Shown here in pieces: positions 2,333 through 52,610 of a DNA stretch of 52,610 bases (the first letter of the stretch is position 1; every line of letters begins with the position of its first letter). The DNA lies in IMG/VR virus record IMGVR_UViG_3300017767_000016, positions 1 through 52,610 of that record. One strand, given 5' to 3'. The notes under the pieces are model-generated. The model saw only the letters and a list, made by a program, of their open reading frames with translations. It searched no databases and had not been told where the DNA came from. Origin of the DNA: a virus. A program made the translations under genes and the position numbers.

Positions 2333-4098
2333 TGTGGAATAATGAATGGAAAAAAGGTGTCGACTACCCATCTTGGGGAGACACGGAAGTATACAAGAAG
2401 ACTATATCCGGGGGATATCTACATATGGGAGAGTCCCCAAGAGACGCATACAAAAGAGTCGCAACAACAGTCGCGAAACGATTGTACAAACCAGAACTAG
2501 CAGATACATTTTTTGATTACATCTGGAAAGGTTGGTTATGTTTAGCGTCTCCGGTTTTATCTAATACAGGTACCGATCGTGGTTTGCCTATATCGTGCTT
2601 CGGTATAGATGTGGGTGATAGTATACACGACATTGGTACTAAAAATTTAGAAATGATGATGCTTGCCAAACACGGTGGGGGTGTTGGTATCGGAGTTAAT
2701 ATGATTCGTCCCGCCGGAGCTAAAATCACAGGAAATGGAACATCAGATGGAGTCGTACCCTTCTGCAAAATCTACGATAGCACAATTCTTGCAACCAATC
2801 AAGGATCAGTTAGACGCGGAGCTGCAAGCGTTAATATCAACATTGACCACGGAGATTTTGAAGAGTGGCTTGAAATACGAGAGCCTAAAGGAGATGTCAA
2901 CAGACAATCGCTTAACTTACATCAGTGCGCAGTGGTTGGCGATAAGTTTATGCGAAAGCTTGAACGAGGAGATGCAGAGGCTAGATCTAAGTGGAGTAAA
3001 CTTCTTAGAAAAAGGAAAAGCACCGGAGAACCGTATATCCTTTTTAAAGGAAACACTAATAAAACAAATCCAGCAGCGTACAAAGACAACGCTTTAAAAG
3101 TTCATATGACTAACATCTGCAGCGAAATAGTATTGCATACAGATGAGTCACATAGCTTTGTTTGTTGTTTAAGTAGTTTAAATGTTACTAAGTATGAAGA
3201 ATGGAAGAATACAAACCTCATCTACGATGCTATCTGGTTTCTTGATGGAGTCTTGGAAGAGTTTATTCAGAAAGCTAAGGGGCTTACAGGCTTTGGAAAC
3301 TCTGTTAGATCTGCTGAGAAGGGCAGAGCACTTGGCTTGGGAGTCTTGGGTTGGCATACGTACCTGCAACAAAACGGTGTACCCTTTGAAGGATTACAAG
3401 CACAGTTCCAGACAAGACGTATATTTAGCCAAATTAAGATTGAATCTGAACGAGCATCAAGAGCGCTTGCTGAGATTTATGGTGAACCTCTTTGGTGTCG
3501 TGGCACTGGCTTTCGTAACACTCATCTTAGGGCTGTTGCTCCTACTGTGTCTAATAGTAAGCTTGCCGGTAATGTTAGTCCTGGTATTGAGCCTTGGGCC
3601 GCTAATGTTTTCACTGAACAAAGCGCGAAGGGTACGTTCATTAGGAAAAACAAAGAGCTAGAAAAAGTACTTCGTAAAGTTGGTATCAACGTTAAAGAAA
3701 CGTGGGACAAGATTATGGCCGATGGCGGAAGTATACAAGATATTGAAGAGTTAGATAACTGGGGATATGTTAATGGTAAGCTTACGCTTATTGAGGACTC
3801 AAAATCGTACGATCTAACAGGCTTTGATAAAGTTAAAGATGTATTTAAAACCTTTAAAGAAATAAATCAATTAGAGCTAGTTAATCAAGCCGGCATACGT
3901 CAGCAATATATTGACCAATCTGTCAGTTTGAATTTAGCTTTTCCTTCTGAAGCGTCGCCTAAGTGGATTAATCAAGTTCACATGGACGCCTGGAAAAAAG
4001 GTATTAAAACATTATATTACATGAGGACAGAGTCTGTGCTGAGAGGCGATATAGCCGCGAGTGCTATGGACCCAGACTGTGTTGCTTGTGATGGGTAA
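2329..4098 (+). CDS. nrdA: class I ribonucleotide reductase, large (alpha) subunit
   Basis: The 589-residue protein is the catalytic RNR subunit. Key residues are in place: Cys90 (PISCFG) and Cys279 form the expected redox pair, Asn262, Cys264 and Glu266 in NICSEI are the active-site triad, and Tyr563-Tyr564 in TLYYMR continue the radical path to the beta subunit. The C-terminus ends CVACDG, the CxxC used for re-reduction by thioredoxin or glutaredoxin. There is no N-terminal ATP cone, so it is shorter than bacterial NrdA (about 760) and should lack that overall-activity switch. ATG 2329 overlaps the upstream stop; ATG 2332 is equally possible. Confidence 0.93.
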   Translation: MMWNNEWKKGVDYPSWGDTEVYKKTISGGYLHMGESPRDAYKRVATTVAKRLYKPELADTFFDYIWKGWLCLASPVLSNTGTDRGLPISCFGIDVGDSIHDIGTKNLEMMMLAKHGGGVGIGVNMIRPAGAKITGNGTSDGVVPFCKIYDSTILATNQGSVRRGAASVNINIDHGDFEEWLEIREPKGDVNRQSLNLHQCAVVGDKFMRKLERGDAEARSKWSKLLRKRKSTGEPYILFKGNTNKTNPAAYKDNALKVHMTNICSEIVLHTDESHSFVCCLSSLNVTKYEEWKNTNLIYDAIWFLDGVLEEFIQKAKGLTGFGNSVRSAEKGRALGLGVLGWHTYLQQNGVPFEGLQAQFQTRRIFSQIKIESERASRALAEIYGEPLWCRGTGFRNTHLRAVAPTVSNSKLAGNVSPGIEPWAANVFTEQSAKGTFIRKNKELEKVLRKVGINVKETWDKIMADGGSIQDIEELDNWGYVNGKLTLIEDSKSYDLTGFDKVKDVFKTFKEINQLELVNQAGIRQQYIDQSVSLNLAFPSEASPKWINQVHMDAWKKGIKTLYYMRTESVLRGDIAASAMDPDCVACDG

Positions 4099-4102
4099 TA
4101 AA

Positions 4103-4138
4103 AAAAGGGGTTACTTTCGTAGCCCCTTAATTTTTTTT
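4103..4138. terminator. bidirectional intrinsic terminator between convergent operons
   Basis: A 10-bp stem (4105-4114 with 4119-4128, one T-G wobble) closes a four-base loop. It is followed by eight T on the plus strand and six T on the minus strand. It sits between the nrdA stop and the end of the minus-strand late block, so it can end transcription from both sides. On the minus transcript the loop reads GAAA, a stable tetraloop. Confidence 0.9.
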
Positions 4139-4149
4139 GCTATACACAA

Positions 4150-7261: not shown

Positions 7262-10200
7262 TTATCTTTTAACTTGTTTTCTTTCTACTTGTTTTCTTTT
7301 TGTTTGTTTTCTTTTATTTGATTTAGGTTTTTTAGCTTGGGATTCTATTAATCCAACATCCCATTTGCTATACCCTAATGCAAGTGATATTGCTTGCCAA
7401 GTTTCAACATCTTGACGCACAGGTGTAGAAAGGTTATCTAATTTACGTATTACGCGATCTGCAGGTAAATTAGTAGTTGCCGCTATAATTTGCCCAACTG
7501 CTTCAAAAGCAGGATTGTCCAAGCTCACACCTTCAGTTCTCATTTTTTCTCGTGACTGACGATACGTAAATGATCTACCGGCTGAAGCTAGCTTGCTTAT
7601 TTTAGAATCAATTGGAGGTGATAAACTTAAAGCCTCTAAAGCAACCTTCTCATAATTTGGTCTACCACTTTTGTATTGCCTTATTACTTCAAGAACCATA
7701 TTTTTGCCTGTAGCAACAGCAGCACCTGCAAATCCAATACCACGTAGAAGAGAATCAGCAGTGCTATTAGCAATCCTATAATATCTTTTTTCAGTTTCTT
7801 CGTCTTCTTCATCGGTAAACATTAAAGCAAACATTGCAGATTGCAAACTAGAAAATATAATGTTTTGAACAACACTATAATACATTAATTTACTAAGGTT
7901 TGTTTTCCAATCACCTCTACGATTAGCTAAGTCTAAGACAGCTTTTTTACTTAAGCGAGCGTATTGCATAGGGGTATTAGCAAAAGCTAATATAACGCGC
8001 CCTAAACCGCTTGCTTGCTGCATTGAAATACGGTCTGGTCTTGATGATTGCTGTGTTTCTTCAGCAACTTCCTGAAAATCTAAAAACGCTTTATCAGCTG
8101 CCTCTTGTTCTGTCATACCCTCTTTTATGTATCGCTTTAATCTGTTGCGATAAAACGAAGCACCACCCATAGCGATTGCATGAGAGTCAGCAAGCTGTGT
8201 TGGCAAGAATCCTTTCTTAAGTATCGATGCTATTACAGACCTAACAGGATTTGTACCCGATTCTGCTGCCTTAGCAATTTCGTCTGCATTTACATCTGTT
8301 TTTAATCCTGATCGTCTTTGCTTAAGAAAATCAGAGTTGAATAAGAACGTATAGTCTTTCCAAAACTGTGGTTGATTTACAAATGCTGCGCCCGCAGACA
8401 ACGGATTATTATCGCTAAAGTTTATAAAGTTAACCATTGATAGCTGCTGCAATAATGCTGATCTTGAGTTAAAGAACATAATAGCGCCAACAGAATCATT
8501 AACCCAGTTTATTAAAGAATTTGTAAGTTTATTTGCTCCAGCTGGTCTTCTTCTACCAGTCTCCATTCTGTAAAGAATATCCTCCAATGCTTCGGTATAG
8601 CTTTCCCCAAATGCAGCCTTTAACTTATTCATTGTTTTGTCGGTAAAGAAAGCGTCTTTAGCTGCTTGCCACGGTTTTAAGTACTCAGATCTTTCAGTTT
8701 TGTTCACATACGTTAAAAGATCAGTAGTCATTGAACCGGCATCCCAACCATTATCGGGCTCAGGGTAGCCCATAATAGATATACCTTGTACGTTTTGAGC
8801 AAACGCCAATAAATCTTCATTACCTTTAACAAGTTTTACGTGAGGTGCAATATCTTTCTTTTGCATACCAGGGACAGTATAACCTAAGCTATTCCATATA
8901 TATATTCTTACTGAATCCTCGTTTGTAAATCCTGTTTCGTTTTTCCTTGAAAGACGGGTAGGCGTTCTGCGTATTAACTTTTTAAGTTCTCTAAAGTCTG
9001 CCAGGCGCTTTTGCTTCGCTGAATCAAATTTTCTTATCGCCTTACCGAATGGGTCAAATAAGTTTTCTTTTAAAAACTTTAAATCGTTATTACCCTGCTT
9101 GCCTTTGCCAACCATATAGTACATAAGACCCGCAAAATCATCAGCTGAAGGTGGTATAAAAAATCTAAATCTACCTTTATTTTTACCAAGCATTGTAGCA
9201 ACCTTGTCAGATATTTGTTCGCGTGTGCCAAACCCAGTTGCTCGTGCAATCACTCTGTTAAATTCAGGAGCAGCTTTTGAACTAAGCTTTTCTGTTATTT
9301 CTTTTGGATTTAATGGTGTTAATCTTTCTTTTATACCGGTTTCATCATATCTAGATTGCTCGCTACCTACTTGTTTATATCCTAATTTAGTTAGTTCATT
9401 ATCTGTTTGTTTTGAAACTAATGCTACTTTGCTGTTTTCTAAATTTTTGAAAAGCAATTCTCTACTCACTAGCTTATCACTAATTAAGTATGACATGCTC
9501 ATACGTGCTAGCAATGAGGATGGGGTCATGTGCTCATATACTAAATTGTCAAAGTTACCTTTTTCAATGTAAGAAACATTACCCAATAATTTTAGGGCTG
9601 TCCGCATGTCCCCGGTTTCTAGCTGAAGATATGTTCTTGCCATATCAATATCGCCTATACTTTTAAAATAATCAATTCTAGACTTAAAATAATCTAGCGC
9701 TTTTTTAGATTGAATATCAAACTCTGGCTTAAACTCCTCAACACCCATTCTAAATTTTTTATTAGTAGGATCTTTTAAAGCAGTAATTTGCCCTTCGCCA
9801 ATATATATTCTGCCATTTTTTATTTTAAATACACCTTCAAATTCTGGAAACTTTTCAATTATTTTGCTATACACATTATCCCAAGCCTGTTTGTTTGTTG
9901 TAAAATACATAGAGCCTTGTCTTATGTTTCTACCTTCAAATCTTACAAAGTCTATAAATCTATCAAACATTTGGTCTTTTGGAGCATTGGTAATGTAATC
10001 TAAAGCAAAATTAATTTGTTCTTTGGCATAGGCCTGGCCGCTGGTTGTTAATTTTCCTTTTTTATTTATTAACCTTAATGTTAATCCCCCAGAAACAGTA
10101 GCAATACCGTCTATTACAGAAATTAAATTAAACTGATTATCGTTTATATATTCTATTTGAGTTTGTCCATATTGCTTTGTCCTGTTAGGAGGAAACTCAC

Positions 10201-16700: not shown

Positions 16701-17045
16701 CTAGCTACTTAAAAAGACCTCACTGTTGACTGCAAATAATTCTTTTTTTGTTGTAGAAGTAACTTCCATATCAACTTCTGCAAAATAACCTATAATACCT
16801 GTAGTATTTATTTCTTTCTTTTTTGTAAAAAATATAAAATCACCATTGCCAGGTCTTTTAGCGTCATCTTCAATATCACAAGTTATTGTATTTTCTGATA
16901 TTGCTATACACGGCCCCACCTTATAAATTTTATTATCTTCGGAATCTTTAAAAAATACAATATCTGCGCCTGGATATCCATTAGTATTGTTTGCCTGCAA
17001 AGATACGTTTAGCGGATTTGTAAATGTTAATGTTACTGTTGCCAT
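16701..17045 (-). CDS. hypothetical structural-context protein, 114 aa
   Basis: I start at ATG 17045 (MATVTLTFTNPLN); an upstream in-frame ATG at 17126 would overlap the end of the 999-aa gene by 65 bases. The 114 residues alternate like beta strands (VTLTFTNPLNVSLQ, ADIVFF, DFIFFTKKK). It probably forms a small beta domain in the virion. It is located between the Ig/cadherin-like protein and the cupin protein. No family is recognised. Confidence 0.6.
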   Translation of the reverse strand: MATVTLTFTNPLNVSLQANNTNGYPGADIVFFKDSEDNKIYKVGPCIAISENTITCDIEDDAKRPGNGDFIFFTKKKEINTTGIIGYFAEVDMEVTSTTKKELFAVNSEVFLSS

Positions 17046-32012: not shown

Positions 32013-34224
32013 AATTTTTTATTAGTTTTGATTTTTGCCCTTCATTTTTATACCTTGCGATATTAAAGGATAATTTTAATTTTTGTCGTTCTTGGTTAGG
32101 AGCATACAAATGCCTGTTGCATGCCATAATAGCTAATCCCGAACTAATAGCGGCGTCGAATTTTGTTCTTTTATTTAGATCAAACTTAGCCCAATCATTA
32201 AGTGTGCCATTAAAATACATTTGACCGTAAGTTCCATCTTCTACTAATCCTACATATTTTTGTATATAGGATTCTATAGCGGCTGCATGAGCCTGCTTAA
32301 TATCTTCACTTGAGTTAGGCATTCCGCCTATTTCTTTTTCAGTAACAGACAATTTATTAAATGCTTTATCAGGTCTGTTTATTGAAAACTTCCTATAGCC
32401 TCTGCGCTTTAAATAATATAATAATCTAGGTTTATTGTTTTCTGCGAGTATCGGCATACCGTAAAAATGTAATGCCATTAATACATCTTCAAAAAACATT
32501 TCAGCAGTTTGAGGCCGTGCAATATATTCAAGAAAAAACATATTCGCAGGGGCTTCTTCCATACTAAATTTAGTTAACCCGTGCAACGCGCCTTTAGATC
32601 CTTGCCCATCTGTTGTTCCTGATATATCATATGAGTCACAACCAAATGCGCCGACGTGCTCGTTTCCGGGGTACAACACCCCTCTTTTCTCTATTACGCG
32701 GTTTTGAAGATTTGTAGGCGGCACCCAACTTACTTTAATCCTGCCGTTTGGGTTTGGGGTGAATACAACACTGCTGTCCTTTATACCGTTTGCCCAACTA
32801 AAGCTACCTTGCGTTACACCTGCTGACGAATATATATCGTCGTTGTAATCTATTTGTTCGTATATTTTTGCAAGGTTAAATATGCTATTTTGTGTCTCGT
32901 CTCTAAAAGCATGCTCCTCCGTACGTGGAAACTGCCTGTACATTTCGTTTAAGGCATCCTGGTCTCCTTTTAAGCCATCAACTTCATTATTCCAATGATC
33001 TATGACTCCGACCTCAATAAGGTCTCTATACGGGCCTTCAATCGGCTTTTTCGGCGTATCAAAGACAGGGTTTCCAAAAGAATCAATGAATCCTTCGTAG
33101 TTCCATTCCATAGGTATGAACAAAGAATATAATCCTGAGCGAGTCTGTCCATTTGCGTTTCGCTTTGTAACGTCCGAATCATAATATAGTTTTTTAAAGT
33201 TTTCGCCACCTTTGTCTAAAGCATTGCTTGTAGACCCCATCAAACATTTACCAATAACCCGACTACCTAACCTTAGCGTTGTTTTTGTGACTCGCCAGTT
33301 GTTGAGGATGTTGTCCGGCCGTTCCCATTTGCCCGATTCGTCGTGTACGAGGAGTTTGAGTTTTTCGCCGTCATAGGAGTTGTCACCCGTGTTCTTCCAG
33401 TCGATTGTCGTGTCAAGTCCCTGCAGCTCTTCCCGCGTCTGCCCTGACTGTATAGATTTACGTGTGAGTTTTGAAGCGGGTACTCTATATGCAAGCTCGG
33501 TTTTGGGACGATCCATACCGTCTTGTATTGGTTTAAAAAAGAACGGGTAGTTAACGGATATTGGAACAACTTTATCTGTGAACATTTTCTTAGCGTCAGC
33601 TCCAGATTTGGAAAGTATGCCAAACCGTGAATCGGACGATATTGTTGCCATATTAACAGCTTCTGATGATGCCATAAATGAAAAGCCAGAGCGTCTGTTT
33701 TTGAGATAGCACATTCCATAACACCGTTGATCGGCTTTACATGCTTCCCAAAATATAAAGAATAATCTGTTTGCTTCTCTAAATTCAGGGGCCCCAACGT
33801 CAATCTTACTCCACTGCAAGTACATGTAATGAGTACCGGTAATATAAGTAGGCTTGTCCTTGTTATGGAACCAATGACCCTCATCGCGTCTTTTAAACTC
33901 TTCATCTATATATGGTTCCCATTGATCTTTAAATTCTTCTGGATAACTTTTCCAATCAAAGATAGTTTTTATTCTATTTAACTCTTTAGGGTATTCGCTT
34001 TTACCCCATTTATTTTTGCCTTTAGTAATCTTGGTTGGCATAGGAGGCAGTGCAATCTTTAAATTTTGTATGCTATACACATCGCCAATTTGCCCTGTCT
34101 TACTAATGACTACAACATCATTTTCTTTATCGTAGCCGTACTTCCATCGCTTTGCTTTGTTGTGACGTTTAAGCGTATTTATTTTAATCGGTTGAATAAC
34201 CTCAAATAAAGTTTGCTCGTACAT
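32005..34224 (-). CDS. terminase large subunit (packaging ATPase/nuclease)
   Basis: The 739-residue protein carries an ATPase with a deviant Walker A, KNRRSGFSF at about 175-183, as in crAss-like terminases. A Walker B LLVHDE lies at 291-296 and a coupling motif MGSTSN at about 329-334. The C-terminal RNase H-type nuclease follows, with GCDSYDISGT as its first acidic motif. The enzyme cuts concatemeric DNA and pumps it into the procapsid. Its ATG shares one base with the stop of the preceding 91-aa gene and its end overlaps the portal start. Confidence 0.92.
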   Translation of the reverse strand: MYEQTLFEVIQPIKINTLKRHNKAKRWKYGYDKENDVVVISKTGQIGDVYSIQNLKIALPPMPTKITKGKNKWGKSEYPKELNRIKTIFDWKSYPEEFKDQWEPYIDEEFKRRDEGHWFHNKDKPTYITGTHYMYLQWSKIDVGAPEFREANRLFFIFWEACKADQRCYGMCYLKNRRSGFSFMASSEAVNMATISSDSRFGILSKSGADAKKMFTDKVVPISVNYPFFFKPIQDGMDRPKTELAYRVPASKLTRKSIQSGQTREELQGLDTTIDWKNTGDNSYDGEKLKLLVHDESGKWERPDNILNNWRVTKTTLRLGSRVIGKCLMGSTSNALDKGGENFKKLYYDSDVTKRNANGQTRSGLYSLFIPMEWNYEGFIDSFGNPVFDTPKKPIEGPYRDLIEVGVIDHWNNEVDGLKGDQDALNEMYRQFPRTEEHAFRDETQNSIFNLAKIYEQIDYNDDIYSSAGVTQGSFSWANGIKDSSVVFTPNPNGRIKVSWVPPTNLQNRVIEKRGVLYPGNEHVGAFGCDSYDISGTTDGQGSKGALHGLTKFSMEEAPANMFFLEYIARPQTAEMFFEDVLMALHFYGMPILAENNKPRLLYYLKRRGYRKFSINRPDKAFNKLSVTEKEIGGMPNSSEDIKQAHAAAIESYIQKYVGLVEDGTYGQMYFNGTLNDWAKFDLNKRTKFDAAISSGLAIMACNRHLYAPNQERQKLKLSFNIARYKNEGQKSKLIKNYG

Positions 34225-51195: not shown

Positions 51196-51340
51196 ACTAA
51201 AGCTAATTCTTTTTAACCAGCCCCCGTGCCGTTTTACGGTTACTGCCTGGGGTTCTCTGGATCCGAACAGCCGGGTCAACAAGAGTCGGACTCGGAACTC
51301 GACCGGATAATTCAGCTTTTTGTACAGCTGCAGCGCAGCG

Positions 51341-51361
51341 TGCATAGCAACGCGTATAGCA
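51341..51361 (+). repeat. TATAGCA-type direct repeat, copy 1
   Basis: Two heptamers, CATAGCA and TATAGCA, are separated by ACGCG. The element lies 14 bases before the matching TTTACAG block that leads into the first promoter module. It is the same 21-base element as at 51571 and 52158 with one changed base. Confidence 0.8.
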
Positions 51362-51369
51362 TTTACAGT

Positions 51370-51401
51370 CTAGTCACGATCCCGTACCGATAATATATTT
51401 G
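51370..51401 (+). promoter_or_regulatory. promoter-like module, copy 1
   Basis: CTAGTCACGA, nine bases, then GATAATATATTTG. The last eight bases, TATATTTG, fit the Bacteroidetes -7 consensus TAnnTTTG exactly. A start would fall close to 51408, a dozen bases before ATG 51420. Confidence 0.72.
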
Positions 51402-51419
51402 AATATTAAATTACCAGTT

Positions 51420-51548
51420 ATGAAACGTAAATTCAATCACAAACAAATAATCGTCGGAGTAATCGTAACCACGTACCTGACTATGTTAATCGGTGGTATC
51501 ATCACCGTATTGTCCAACCTTGATTCCGCATCGTACGGTATCTACTAA
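51420..51548 (+). CDS. early small membrane protein, 42 aa
   Basis: ATG 51420 to TAA 51546-51548. A basic start (MKRKFNHKQ) is followed by one hydrophobic span (IIVGVIVTTYLTMLIGGIIT) and a short tail. It lies directly behind promoter module 1. A single-span micro-protein expressed early may act on the host membrane or block superinfection, but this is inference from position. Confidence 0.6.
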   Translation: MKRKFNHKQIIVGVIVTTYLTMLIGGIITVLSNLDSASYGIY

Positions 51549-51570
51549 ACCTAAGGGCACCGCCCTGCGG

Positions 51571-51591
51571 TGTATAGCACCGCGTATAGCA
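51571..51591 (+). repeat. TATAGCA-type direct repeat, copy 2
   Basis: Two TATAGCA heptamers separated by CCGCG. A 6-bp hairpin (CACCGC-CCT-GCGGTG, 51559-51573) overlaps its left edge. The following ATTTTTACAG also matches copy 1. Confidence 0.8.
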
Positions 51592-51601
51592 TTTTTACAG
51601 A

Positions 51602-51633
51602 CTAACCACGATACTACTTCGATAATATATATG
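51602..51633 (+). promoter_or_regulatory. promoter-like module, copy 2
   Basis: CTAACCACGA, nine bases, then GATAATATATATG, 37 bases before ATG 51671. The leader after it is almost pure A/T. Confidence 0.7.
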
Positions 51634-51670
51634 AAACGAATTTAAAAGTATAACTATTAAAATTAAAATT

Positions 51671-51811
51671 ATGAGTATAAATGACAAATTAAAACAACTG
51701 TACAATCGCTACGACTTCTTAATTGATAACGATAGATGGGTACAAGCTAAGACAATTCAAAATGAAATAAGAGAATTAGAATTGTTACGTGAAGAAAGTT
51801 ACACAAACTAA
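51671..51811 (+). CDS. early small helical protein, 46 aa
   Basis: ATG 51671 to TAA 51809-51811. Charged helical protein (MSINDKLKQLYNRYDFLI ... NEIRELELLREE) with an A/T-rich leader directly behind promoter module 2. It could be a coiled-coil host-takeover factor. No family is recognised. Confidence 0.62.
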   Translation: MSINDKLKQLYNRYDFLIDNDRWVQAKTIQNEIRELELLREESYTN

Positions 51812-51839
51812 ACACGAAGTAAAGTAGATAATATAAATG
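51808..51839 (+). promoter_or_regulatory. promoter-like module, copy 3
   Basis: CTAAACACGA, nine bases, then GATAATATAAATG. It overlaps the stop codon of the 46-aa gene and precedes ATG 51863 by 23 bases. Confidence 0.7.
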
Positions 51840-51862
51840 TAAACAAATTAAAATAAATAATT

Positions 51863-52114
51863 ATGAGTAAATTAAATAACACATTAGTAAGTAAAAGATT
51901 TATCATTCGAAAGTCTTTAATCGGTAAAAACATCAATGTCTCATTCACAGACTACGATGGTAAAGTACACAAGTATTCACATGACAAAGTATATGAGTTA
52001 TGTAAAGAAAGATTCGACAACATGAAATGTTTCCAAAAATACAAGTACTACTCTCAAACATTCGCACTGCCGAAGTTTGTACGCGAGTTAGGTGATGAGG
52101 TTCTAGTCAAATAG
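51863..52114 (+). CDS. early small protein, 83 aa
   Basis: The 83 residues include a beta start (NTLVSKRFIIRKSLIGKNIN), VSFTDYDGKVHKYSHDKVYE and a basic helical part (KERFDNMKCFQKYKYYSQ). An A/T-rich leader follows promoter module 3. The function is not recognised. The codon pattern and leader match the other early genes, so it is probably real and expressed early. Confidence 0.7.
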   Translation: MSKLNNTLVSKRFIIRKSLIGKNINVSFTDYDGKVHKYSHDKVYELCKERFDNMKCFQKYKYYSQTFALPKFVRELGDEVLVK

Positions 52115-52115
52115 A

Positions 52116-52192
52116 ACTTCACCCCTAGCGGGGGCTACCGCCCTCGTGTACAGCATATGTATAGCAACGCGTATAGCACAGTGCGGTGAAGT
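52116..52192 (+). repeat. inverted repeat flanking TATAGCA copy 3
   Basis: ACTTCACC at 52116-52123 and its exact complement GGTGAAGT at 52185-52192 enclose a G/C-rich hairpin (CCCC-TAGC-GGGG) and repeat copy 3. The left arm lies just after the 83-aa stop codon, so a large stem could form at the mRNA end. Confidence 0.6.
52158..52178 (+). repeat. TATAGCA-type direct repeat, copy 3
   Basis: Two TATAGCA heptamers separated by ACGCG. A third related heptamer (TACAGCA, 52149-52155) lies 11 bases before the first, so heptamers recur about once per helical turn. Confidence 0.8.
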
Positions 52193-52398
52193 AATAAAAA
52201 GTAGCACCTTCCCAAAAAAAAAGTAAAGAACAGATCAGTGATGAAGAGATTAGTAACGAAAAGTGCGACACTAGCCTGTTATTAATAATACTTAACTAGC
52301 TAATGTCACATTTCTTGGTAACTCATGCACAGAGAGGTGATGTTATACCTACAACACTTTTTTATACTACAAACACTTTACCTACTTTTATTTACAAA
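52193..52398 (+). other. intergenic region before the last early gene
   Basis: No convincing gene is seen between the inverted repeat and the fourth promoter module. Frames of 14 codons (starting ATG 52231) and 37 codons (52303-52416) exist; the second runs into the promoter module and is doubtful. A run of nine A lies near 52216. Confidence 0.4.
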
Positions 52399-52430
52399 TT
52401 GAACACGAATCGGTGACGATAATATATATG
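52399..52430 (+). promoter_or_regulatory. promoter-like module, copy 4
   Basis: TTGAACACGA, nine bases, then GATAATATATATG, 20 bases before ATG 52451. The TTG fits the Bacteroidetes -33 element. Confidence 0.72.
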
Positions 52431-52450
52431 AAACTTTAAAACACATTACT

Positions 52451-52610
52451 ATGAATAAATATGATTTTCATTGGGATAGTGATACTATCAATTACTATGC
52501 TACCGGCTTTCTAAATTGCGAGATTAGTAATGGCTGGGCAGGTACTGCACTTGTAATCTACAAATACGTAGCAGACGAGTGTGACTATGACTACGAGAGT
52601 GATTTTCGAA
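52451..52610 (+). CDS. early protein, 5' part (runs off the window)
   Basis: ATG 52451 opens a frame to the right edge, at least 53 residues: MNKYDFHWDSDTINYYATGF, then a Gly/Trp turn and an acidic, Tyr/Asp-rich stretch (DECDYDYESDF). The acidic character resembles phage DNA mimics or antirestriction proteins, but the end is missing. It lies directly behind promoter module 4. Confidence 0.6.
   Translation, partial: MNKYDFHWDSDTINYYATGFLNCEISNGWAGTALVIYKYVADECDYDYESDFR

Follow-up and report, generated by a model that had tools for sequence, protein, structure and literature searches.

The TATAGCA repeats that lie beside the early genes of this phage contig form the local portion of a wider system, whose true unit is the 10-bp word RYGTATAGCA. 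This word quite possibly serves a phage-encoded DNA-binding factor, linked to the polarity of replication, as its recognition site.

The window analysed is a whole IMG/VR contig of 52,610 bases, classed linear. Late genes run leftward from 51102 and early genes rightward from 51420 to the contig end, beyond which they probably continue at the contig start. The window encodes GroEL, class I ribonucleotide reductase genes and a crAss muzzle-domain protein, and in the large subunit of its terminase it shares 62% identity with the uncultured podovirus MW202828 and 32 to 45% with Flavobacterium, Cellulophaga and Tenacibaculum phages. Two sets of genomes were compared: a discovery set of 15 relatives, read whole, and a second set of 15 further records, selected for the tandem element, the junction gene or a near relative of the window's reductase gene. 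The polarity described below was discovered without using the second set, for most records of which some by-strand motif counts were already known. All records are uncultured contigs, sampled via one junction gene and the motif itself.

The first-pass annotation had described three near-identical TATAGCA-N5-TATAGCA repeats, and these are real. All three are intergenic and on the + strand; those at 51573 and 52160 are exact, and the one at 51343 carries a mismatch (CATAGCA). The 17-mer TAGCA-M-CGCGTATAGCA occurs exactly three times, against none for the reversed control. The G/C-rich hairpin described beside each copy was found again (Table 1). A run of three heptamers had been claimed for copy 3; the extra one does stand 11 bp before the next unit, but it reads TACAGCA (52149), with one mismatch. 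Copies 1 and 2 have the TTTACAG stretch in common and lie, as described, upstream of a promoter module, ending 28 and 30 bases before GATAATATA. The early promoter consensus, TTACAAACTAAAYACGA-N8-GATAATATA..TG, is found on the + strand at 51365-51401, 51597-51633, 51803-51839 and 52394-52430, and forms many one-strand repeats across the early regions of the phage family.

Table 1. Features of the repeat region and single sites of the window
Feature	Position	Strand	Basis
Stem-loop GCTGC-AGC-GCAGC before copy 1	51327..51339	+	sequence
Copy 1, in the divergent late/early gap: variant unit TGCATAGCA and exact site GCGTATAGCA (51352-51361)	51341..51361	+	
First early promoter module, TTTACAG...CACGA-N-GATAATATATTTG	51365..51401	+	
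Stem-loop GCACCGC-CCT-GCGGTGT before copy 2, directly past the stop of ORF 51420-51548	51557..51573	+	
Copy 2: GTGTATAGCA (51570-51579) and GCGTATAGCA (51582-51591)	51570..51591	+	
Second early promoter module	51597..51633	+	
Immediate-early 83-aa protein gene, with copy 3 behind it	51863..52114	+	
Predicted stem-loop structure around copy 3	52116..52191	+	fold z = -4.7
Copy 3: near-unit TACAGCA, ATGTATAGCA (52157-52166) and GCGTATAGCA (52169-52178)	52149..52178	+	
Candidate origin zone X, from the last + site to the contig end, with the GTGCGACA...TGTCAC hairpin (52263-52309)	52179..52610	.	inferred
Single site GTGTATAGCA at the late operon end, before a bidirectional terminator hairpin	4138..4147	-	
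Single site within the 2266-aa ORF	9865..9874	-	
Single site within a late ORF	16902..16911	-	
Single site near the terminase gene start; similar place in G006, G018 and G034	34071..34080	-	

RYGTATAGCA occurs nine times in the window against 0.5 expected, a number reached by no shuffle: five copies are on the + strand between 51352 and 52178, and four single ones are on the - strand in the late region (4138, 9865, 16902 and 34071), the latter absent from the first-pass annotation. Over 15 genomes, the octamer GTATAGCA ranks third, and its complement first, among 14,814 over-represented 8-mers, and GTGTATAGCA has 33 + 91 copies where about one per strand is expected. Single-mismatch versions of GTGTATAGCA are nearly absent, except for A at position 1 and C at position 2, the two changes that RYGTATAGCA allows for, and the exact core TAGCANCGCGTATAGCA was found on 53 viral stretches. 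A search in the rest of the genome and in relatives had been suggested, and it returned the further single sites and RYGTATAGCA across the family. Absence from close relatives with the same early genes, or a purely coding location, had been named as evidence against the element; it is in fact carried by many such relatives, and its tandem form is intergenic. At 4090-4147, where early and late genes converge, the motif stands together with an A run and a bidirectional terminator hairpin; the same arrangement is seen near the early-gene end of G007, with the motif in the orientation opposite to the window's.

Outside these phages the word is not enriched. The octamer is near control level in 99 bacterial genomes of the presumed host class, nor is it over-represented in two MAGs from the host side once their phage contigs are set aside; we therefore think it most likely that the factor reading RYGTATAGCA is encoded by the phage. 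No exact match to the doublet was found in bacterial genome contigs. A BLAST search of phage records with the cassette had only weak AT-rich matches among its 20 best listed, and these left the repeats uncovered, and the literature matches listed for the octamer were all unrelated. The cultured or complete relatives MW202828, elemoA, phi18:3 and phi38:1 have neither the element nor this early promoter. Some relatives carry motifs of their own. The nearest complete one, MW202828.1 (L137, L138), has a palindrome, GTGTCGTTAACGACAC, that is present about 14 times and resembles a dispersed operator, and in phi38:1 (L143, L144) TTGATAGTG is present 12 times on one strand and 0 times on the other. 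The early leaders of L089, L097, L127, L135 and L136 show repeated TGACAT / TGTCAT before the first early promoter, possibly a different site doing the same job.

In most of the 53 stretches the order is stem-loop, then units, then promoter. Of 137 first units, 73 have a stem of score at least 12 ahead of them, compared with 7% in shuffles; stem sequences vary freely, and the loops are stable ones (for example, GAA, GAAA, GCAA and TTCG). These stem-loops are found mainly where an upstream co-directional gene ends. At divergent junctions units are present, often without a good hairpin, and between convergent genes they almost never occur. Around 509 early promoters, the forward heptamer shows strong enrichment between -80 and -28, and the reverse heptamer, which is less common, gathers at -30 to -37; upstream of early promoters the heptamer was counted 258 times, against 62 for four control heptamers together. 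The tandem form is confined to one strand in 25 of 25 records, and in 22 of the 23 records with a strict promoter pattern (the exception is G025) this is the strand of all or nearly all promoters. In G034 the site is reversed at the first four early promoters, always at the same place (-30), which indicates that its use at promoters is a function at least partly distinct from polarity.

The heptamers had been said to recur once per helical turn, recalling iterons or operator sites. This spacing finds no support: among 183 tandem pairs the step varies between 8 and 17 bp (12 bp in 89 pairs, 13 in 24, 9 in 22, 11 in 15, 10 in 13 and 14 in 13). A sequence-specific, phage-specific site beside early promoters does agree with the data. 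Like iterons and DnaA-box clusters, the repeats are short, tandem and direct, and lie near a skew minimum beside early genes; unlike them, they form not one array of constant helical spacing but three clusters with variable steps, which extend over about 0.8 kb and are separated by genes, and they have opposite-strand copies genome-wide. Of the binding proteins that the first-pass annotation had envisaged (repressor, activator or replication initiator), a replication factor is possible. The iteron picture misses what matters most, the genome-wide single sites on the opposite strand.

Several other ideas were tried and rejected. Inverted pairs show no enrichment (68 stretches, against 80 for the reversed control of a looser tandem pattern). 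Recognition of a UAUAG loop on a varying stem was significant only in the middle unit of triples (3.1 against 1.6 bp, 14 cases) and, weakly, in first units. RNA pairing of the elements with early mRNAs would leave the enriched late-strand sites unexplained. An Rfam scan of the window gave one gathering match, unrelated to the repeats: a marginal one to iron response element II at 8748-8778 (+), inside the 2266-aa ORF, which is most likely due to chance.

Whole genomes carry single copies throughout, most of them on one strand. Sites on the early strand occupy the first ~2.5 kb past the late/early divide, often in tandem, behind a variable stem-loop and before an early promoter; beyond ~2.5 kb, nearly all copies are single and on the opposite strand. 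In the discovery set, the first 2.5 kb hold 60 early-strand and 10 opposite sites, and the interval from 2.5 to 10 kb holds 3 and 57; the second set gives 46 and 4, then 4 and 53 up to 10 kb. These counts are not of independent events, inherited sites being common to related records. Among 432 testable 8-mers, GTATAGCA shows the largest strand flip (100:12 against 16:175). In several records (G027, G039, G026, G032 and G037) early-strand sites are missing from the neighbourhood of the divide. In circular coordinates, which presuppose complete, circularly permuted genomes, the density of opposite-strand sites decays with distance (0.67, 0.43, 0.19 and 0.04 per kb), and the sites do not change their physical strand across the late genes. 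Early genes are co-directional across the flip, and late genes are opposite where the site strand stays constant, so that site direction is decoupled from transcription both ways.

Most single sites lie inside ORFs, where they have no hairpins; the ORFs are unrelated and all codon phases are used (AIH, LYT, CYT), and some sites lie between genes. Sites in ORFs exceed synonymous-shuffle expectation 7 to 11 times (68 against 9.4, and 35 against 3.1), and are thus kept by selection over the coding sequence. Their spacing is more even than chance, with a coefficient of variation (CV) of 0.52 against 0.83 in the null (0/2000), and of 0.61 against 0.85 (fraction 0.002) in the second set.

The cumulative GC-skew, proposed by the first-pass annotation as a check for an origin, has its minimum to the right of the late/early divide in 30 of 30 records, at a median of +1.34 kb. 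AT skew switches at the divide itself, as coding strand would predict. This is indirect evidence, and fits an origin placed about 1 to 2.5 kb into the early region, which in the window means position 52.2 kb or further right. The change in GC skew is gradual and third-codon skew is weak; G+C is lowest (0.316) in the bin from 1 to 2 kb past the divide. In 13 of the 30 records a conserved hairpin, GTGNGACA...TGTCAC, was matched within the first 6 kb, lying some tens to about 100 bases past the last + unit in the window and several relatives, and elsewhere in the zone in others. It takes the form GTGNGACA(C/A)TAGCC...CTAAYGTCAC in the early leader, often followed by a T-rich stretch and sometimes in two copies; besides the window (on the + strand), similar hairpins were seen in G006, G018, G020, G013, G019, G007, G022 and others. 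It has no Rfam match, and may be an ncRNA, a terminator or an origin hairpin.

The question arises as to how these observations could be joined. Most likely, the factor is part of the replication machinery, and the hairpin-linked clusters double as control sites of the immediate-early promoters. The scheme that we envisage has a zone X, 1 to 2.5 kb into the early region, as the origin of mainly rightward replication. Near the divide, clustered sites, single to triple, stand upstream of the first few early promoters, preceded by a stem-loop where a co-directional gene ends; those near X would bind an initiator-type protein that also touches the adjacent immediate-early promoters. To the right of X, single opposite-strand sites, dense and then thinning, extend all round the genome and would serve the travelling replication or recombination machinery, through helicase or primase loading or a Chi-like stop. 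A wider statement of this scheme, which we offer with more reserve, is that a lytic phage family possesses a polar signal of its own, of the kind seen in chromosomes: a nearly exact word of 10 bp which marks replication direction, flips at the phage origin, is kept in genes by synonymous-codon selection, and is clustered with hairpins at the origin, coupling immediate-early transcription to replication.

Other readings have to be weighed against this one. A phage regulator could act at the immediate-early promoters and, at dispersed polar sites, halt elongation in one direction (for example, of leftward transcripts), as a form of temporal control. Sites do lie near the first early promoters and in excess upstream of early promoters, and dispersed, asymmetric, oriented sites are a hallmark of L5-type stoperators, the repressor sites of cluster A mycobacteriophages (PMC9283540, PMC6550527). 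The likeness includes phage specificity, strong orientation and a placement both at promoters and genome-wide. However, stoperators measure 13-14 bp and sit in short intergenic gaps, whereas the site here measures 10 bp, is mostly found within ORFs when single, and forms hairpin-linked tandem clusters. Stoperators are oriented with transcription, and the site here is not: its strand stays constant across early (+) and late (-) genes, and changes at a point where the early genes are still co-directional. Moreover, no integrase above cut-off was found in the 26 records searched, which argues against a temperate life. We consider such a regulator rather unlikely, if still worth keeping in mind. 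An octamer that stops a one-direction exonuclease, of the host AddAB/RecBCD type or of the phage, and is dense near an exposed or origin-proximal end, would account for the exactness, the strand polarity, the even steps of 1-2 kb and the decay with distance, but would leave the hairpin-linked tandem copies at promoters unexplained. The bacterial counts given above also run against it; a host Chi site was rejected on the lack of enrichment in the host-side genomes tested, and we hold a Chi-like role in general to be improbable. The stoperator-like and Chi-like readings each fail one tested feature.

Could the elements instead end transcription? T4 PeSL is a mobile regulatory cassette made of an early promoter and a stem-loop, and here too, modules of intergenic hairpin and early promoter are repeated between small early genes; the difference is a strict motif, resembling a protein site, that stands between hairpin and promoter and is also found alone elsewhere. 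A stem-loop with a TATAGCA tail might thus close one early unit before the next promoter, and the variable stems with stable loops directly before units, mostly where an upstream gene ends, agree with this. Yet the hairpin is followed by TATAGCA, not by the T run of an intrinsic terminator, and single copies in ORFs have no hairpin. As the units occur at divergent junctions and are nearly absent between convergent genes, a pure terminator was rejected, and the cassette with promoter seems to us quite improbable. Finally, exact, dispersed, one-strand sites, with a hairpin ahead of the tandem copies, might be nicked on one strand by a phage nuclease, as in T5-type genomes; the tandem arrangement linked to promoters does not call for nicking, such a nuclease is putative, and we find this reading very hard to credit.

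Which protein would read the site? The DnaA box has the consensus TTATnCACA, and TGCTATACRY, the reverse complement of the site, is not such a box: it agrees at about 7 of 9 positions, its first base being C and its last R. The DnaA domain-IV family PF08299 was found in only 6 of 47 records, and DnaA domain IV was therefore rejected as the universal binder. A family of 83-aa basic immediate-early proteins is present in 13 of 15 genomes, with two copies in several. Pfam has no match for this protein, and although its model is confident (pLDDT 86.8), no PDB fold matches it significantly, so that the predicted fold speaks neither for nor against it as the binder. N4-type promoters are conserved hairpins read by a virion RNA polymerase; stems here vary freely, and the 2266-aa protein, for which no PDB chain or Pfam family was matched by sequence, shows no match to a polymerase, and this candidate was set aside.

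Bacterial chromosomes are known to carry dispersed polar words that are linked to replication, and temperate actinobacteriophages to carry repressor sites that are likewise dispersed and oriented. Like Chi, KOPS and AIMS, the word described here is of 8-10 bp, nearly exact, on one strand, selected over coding sequence and flipping at an apparent origin; the octamer has a strand bias, with a flip that would correspond to the origin. Unlike them, it occurs in phages and not in the bacteria tested, its density falls from the flip, and it has tandem copies beside promoters. A phage-specific word that flips at the apparent origin, independently of gene direction, would, if true, be a new use of such signals. 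RYGTATAGCA provides an exact bait sequence for finding the factor, and the origin is predicted to within about 2 kb. For uncultured phages of marine Bacteroidota that are related to crAss-like viruses, the motif may also be of use in locating early regions and origins.
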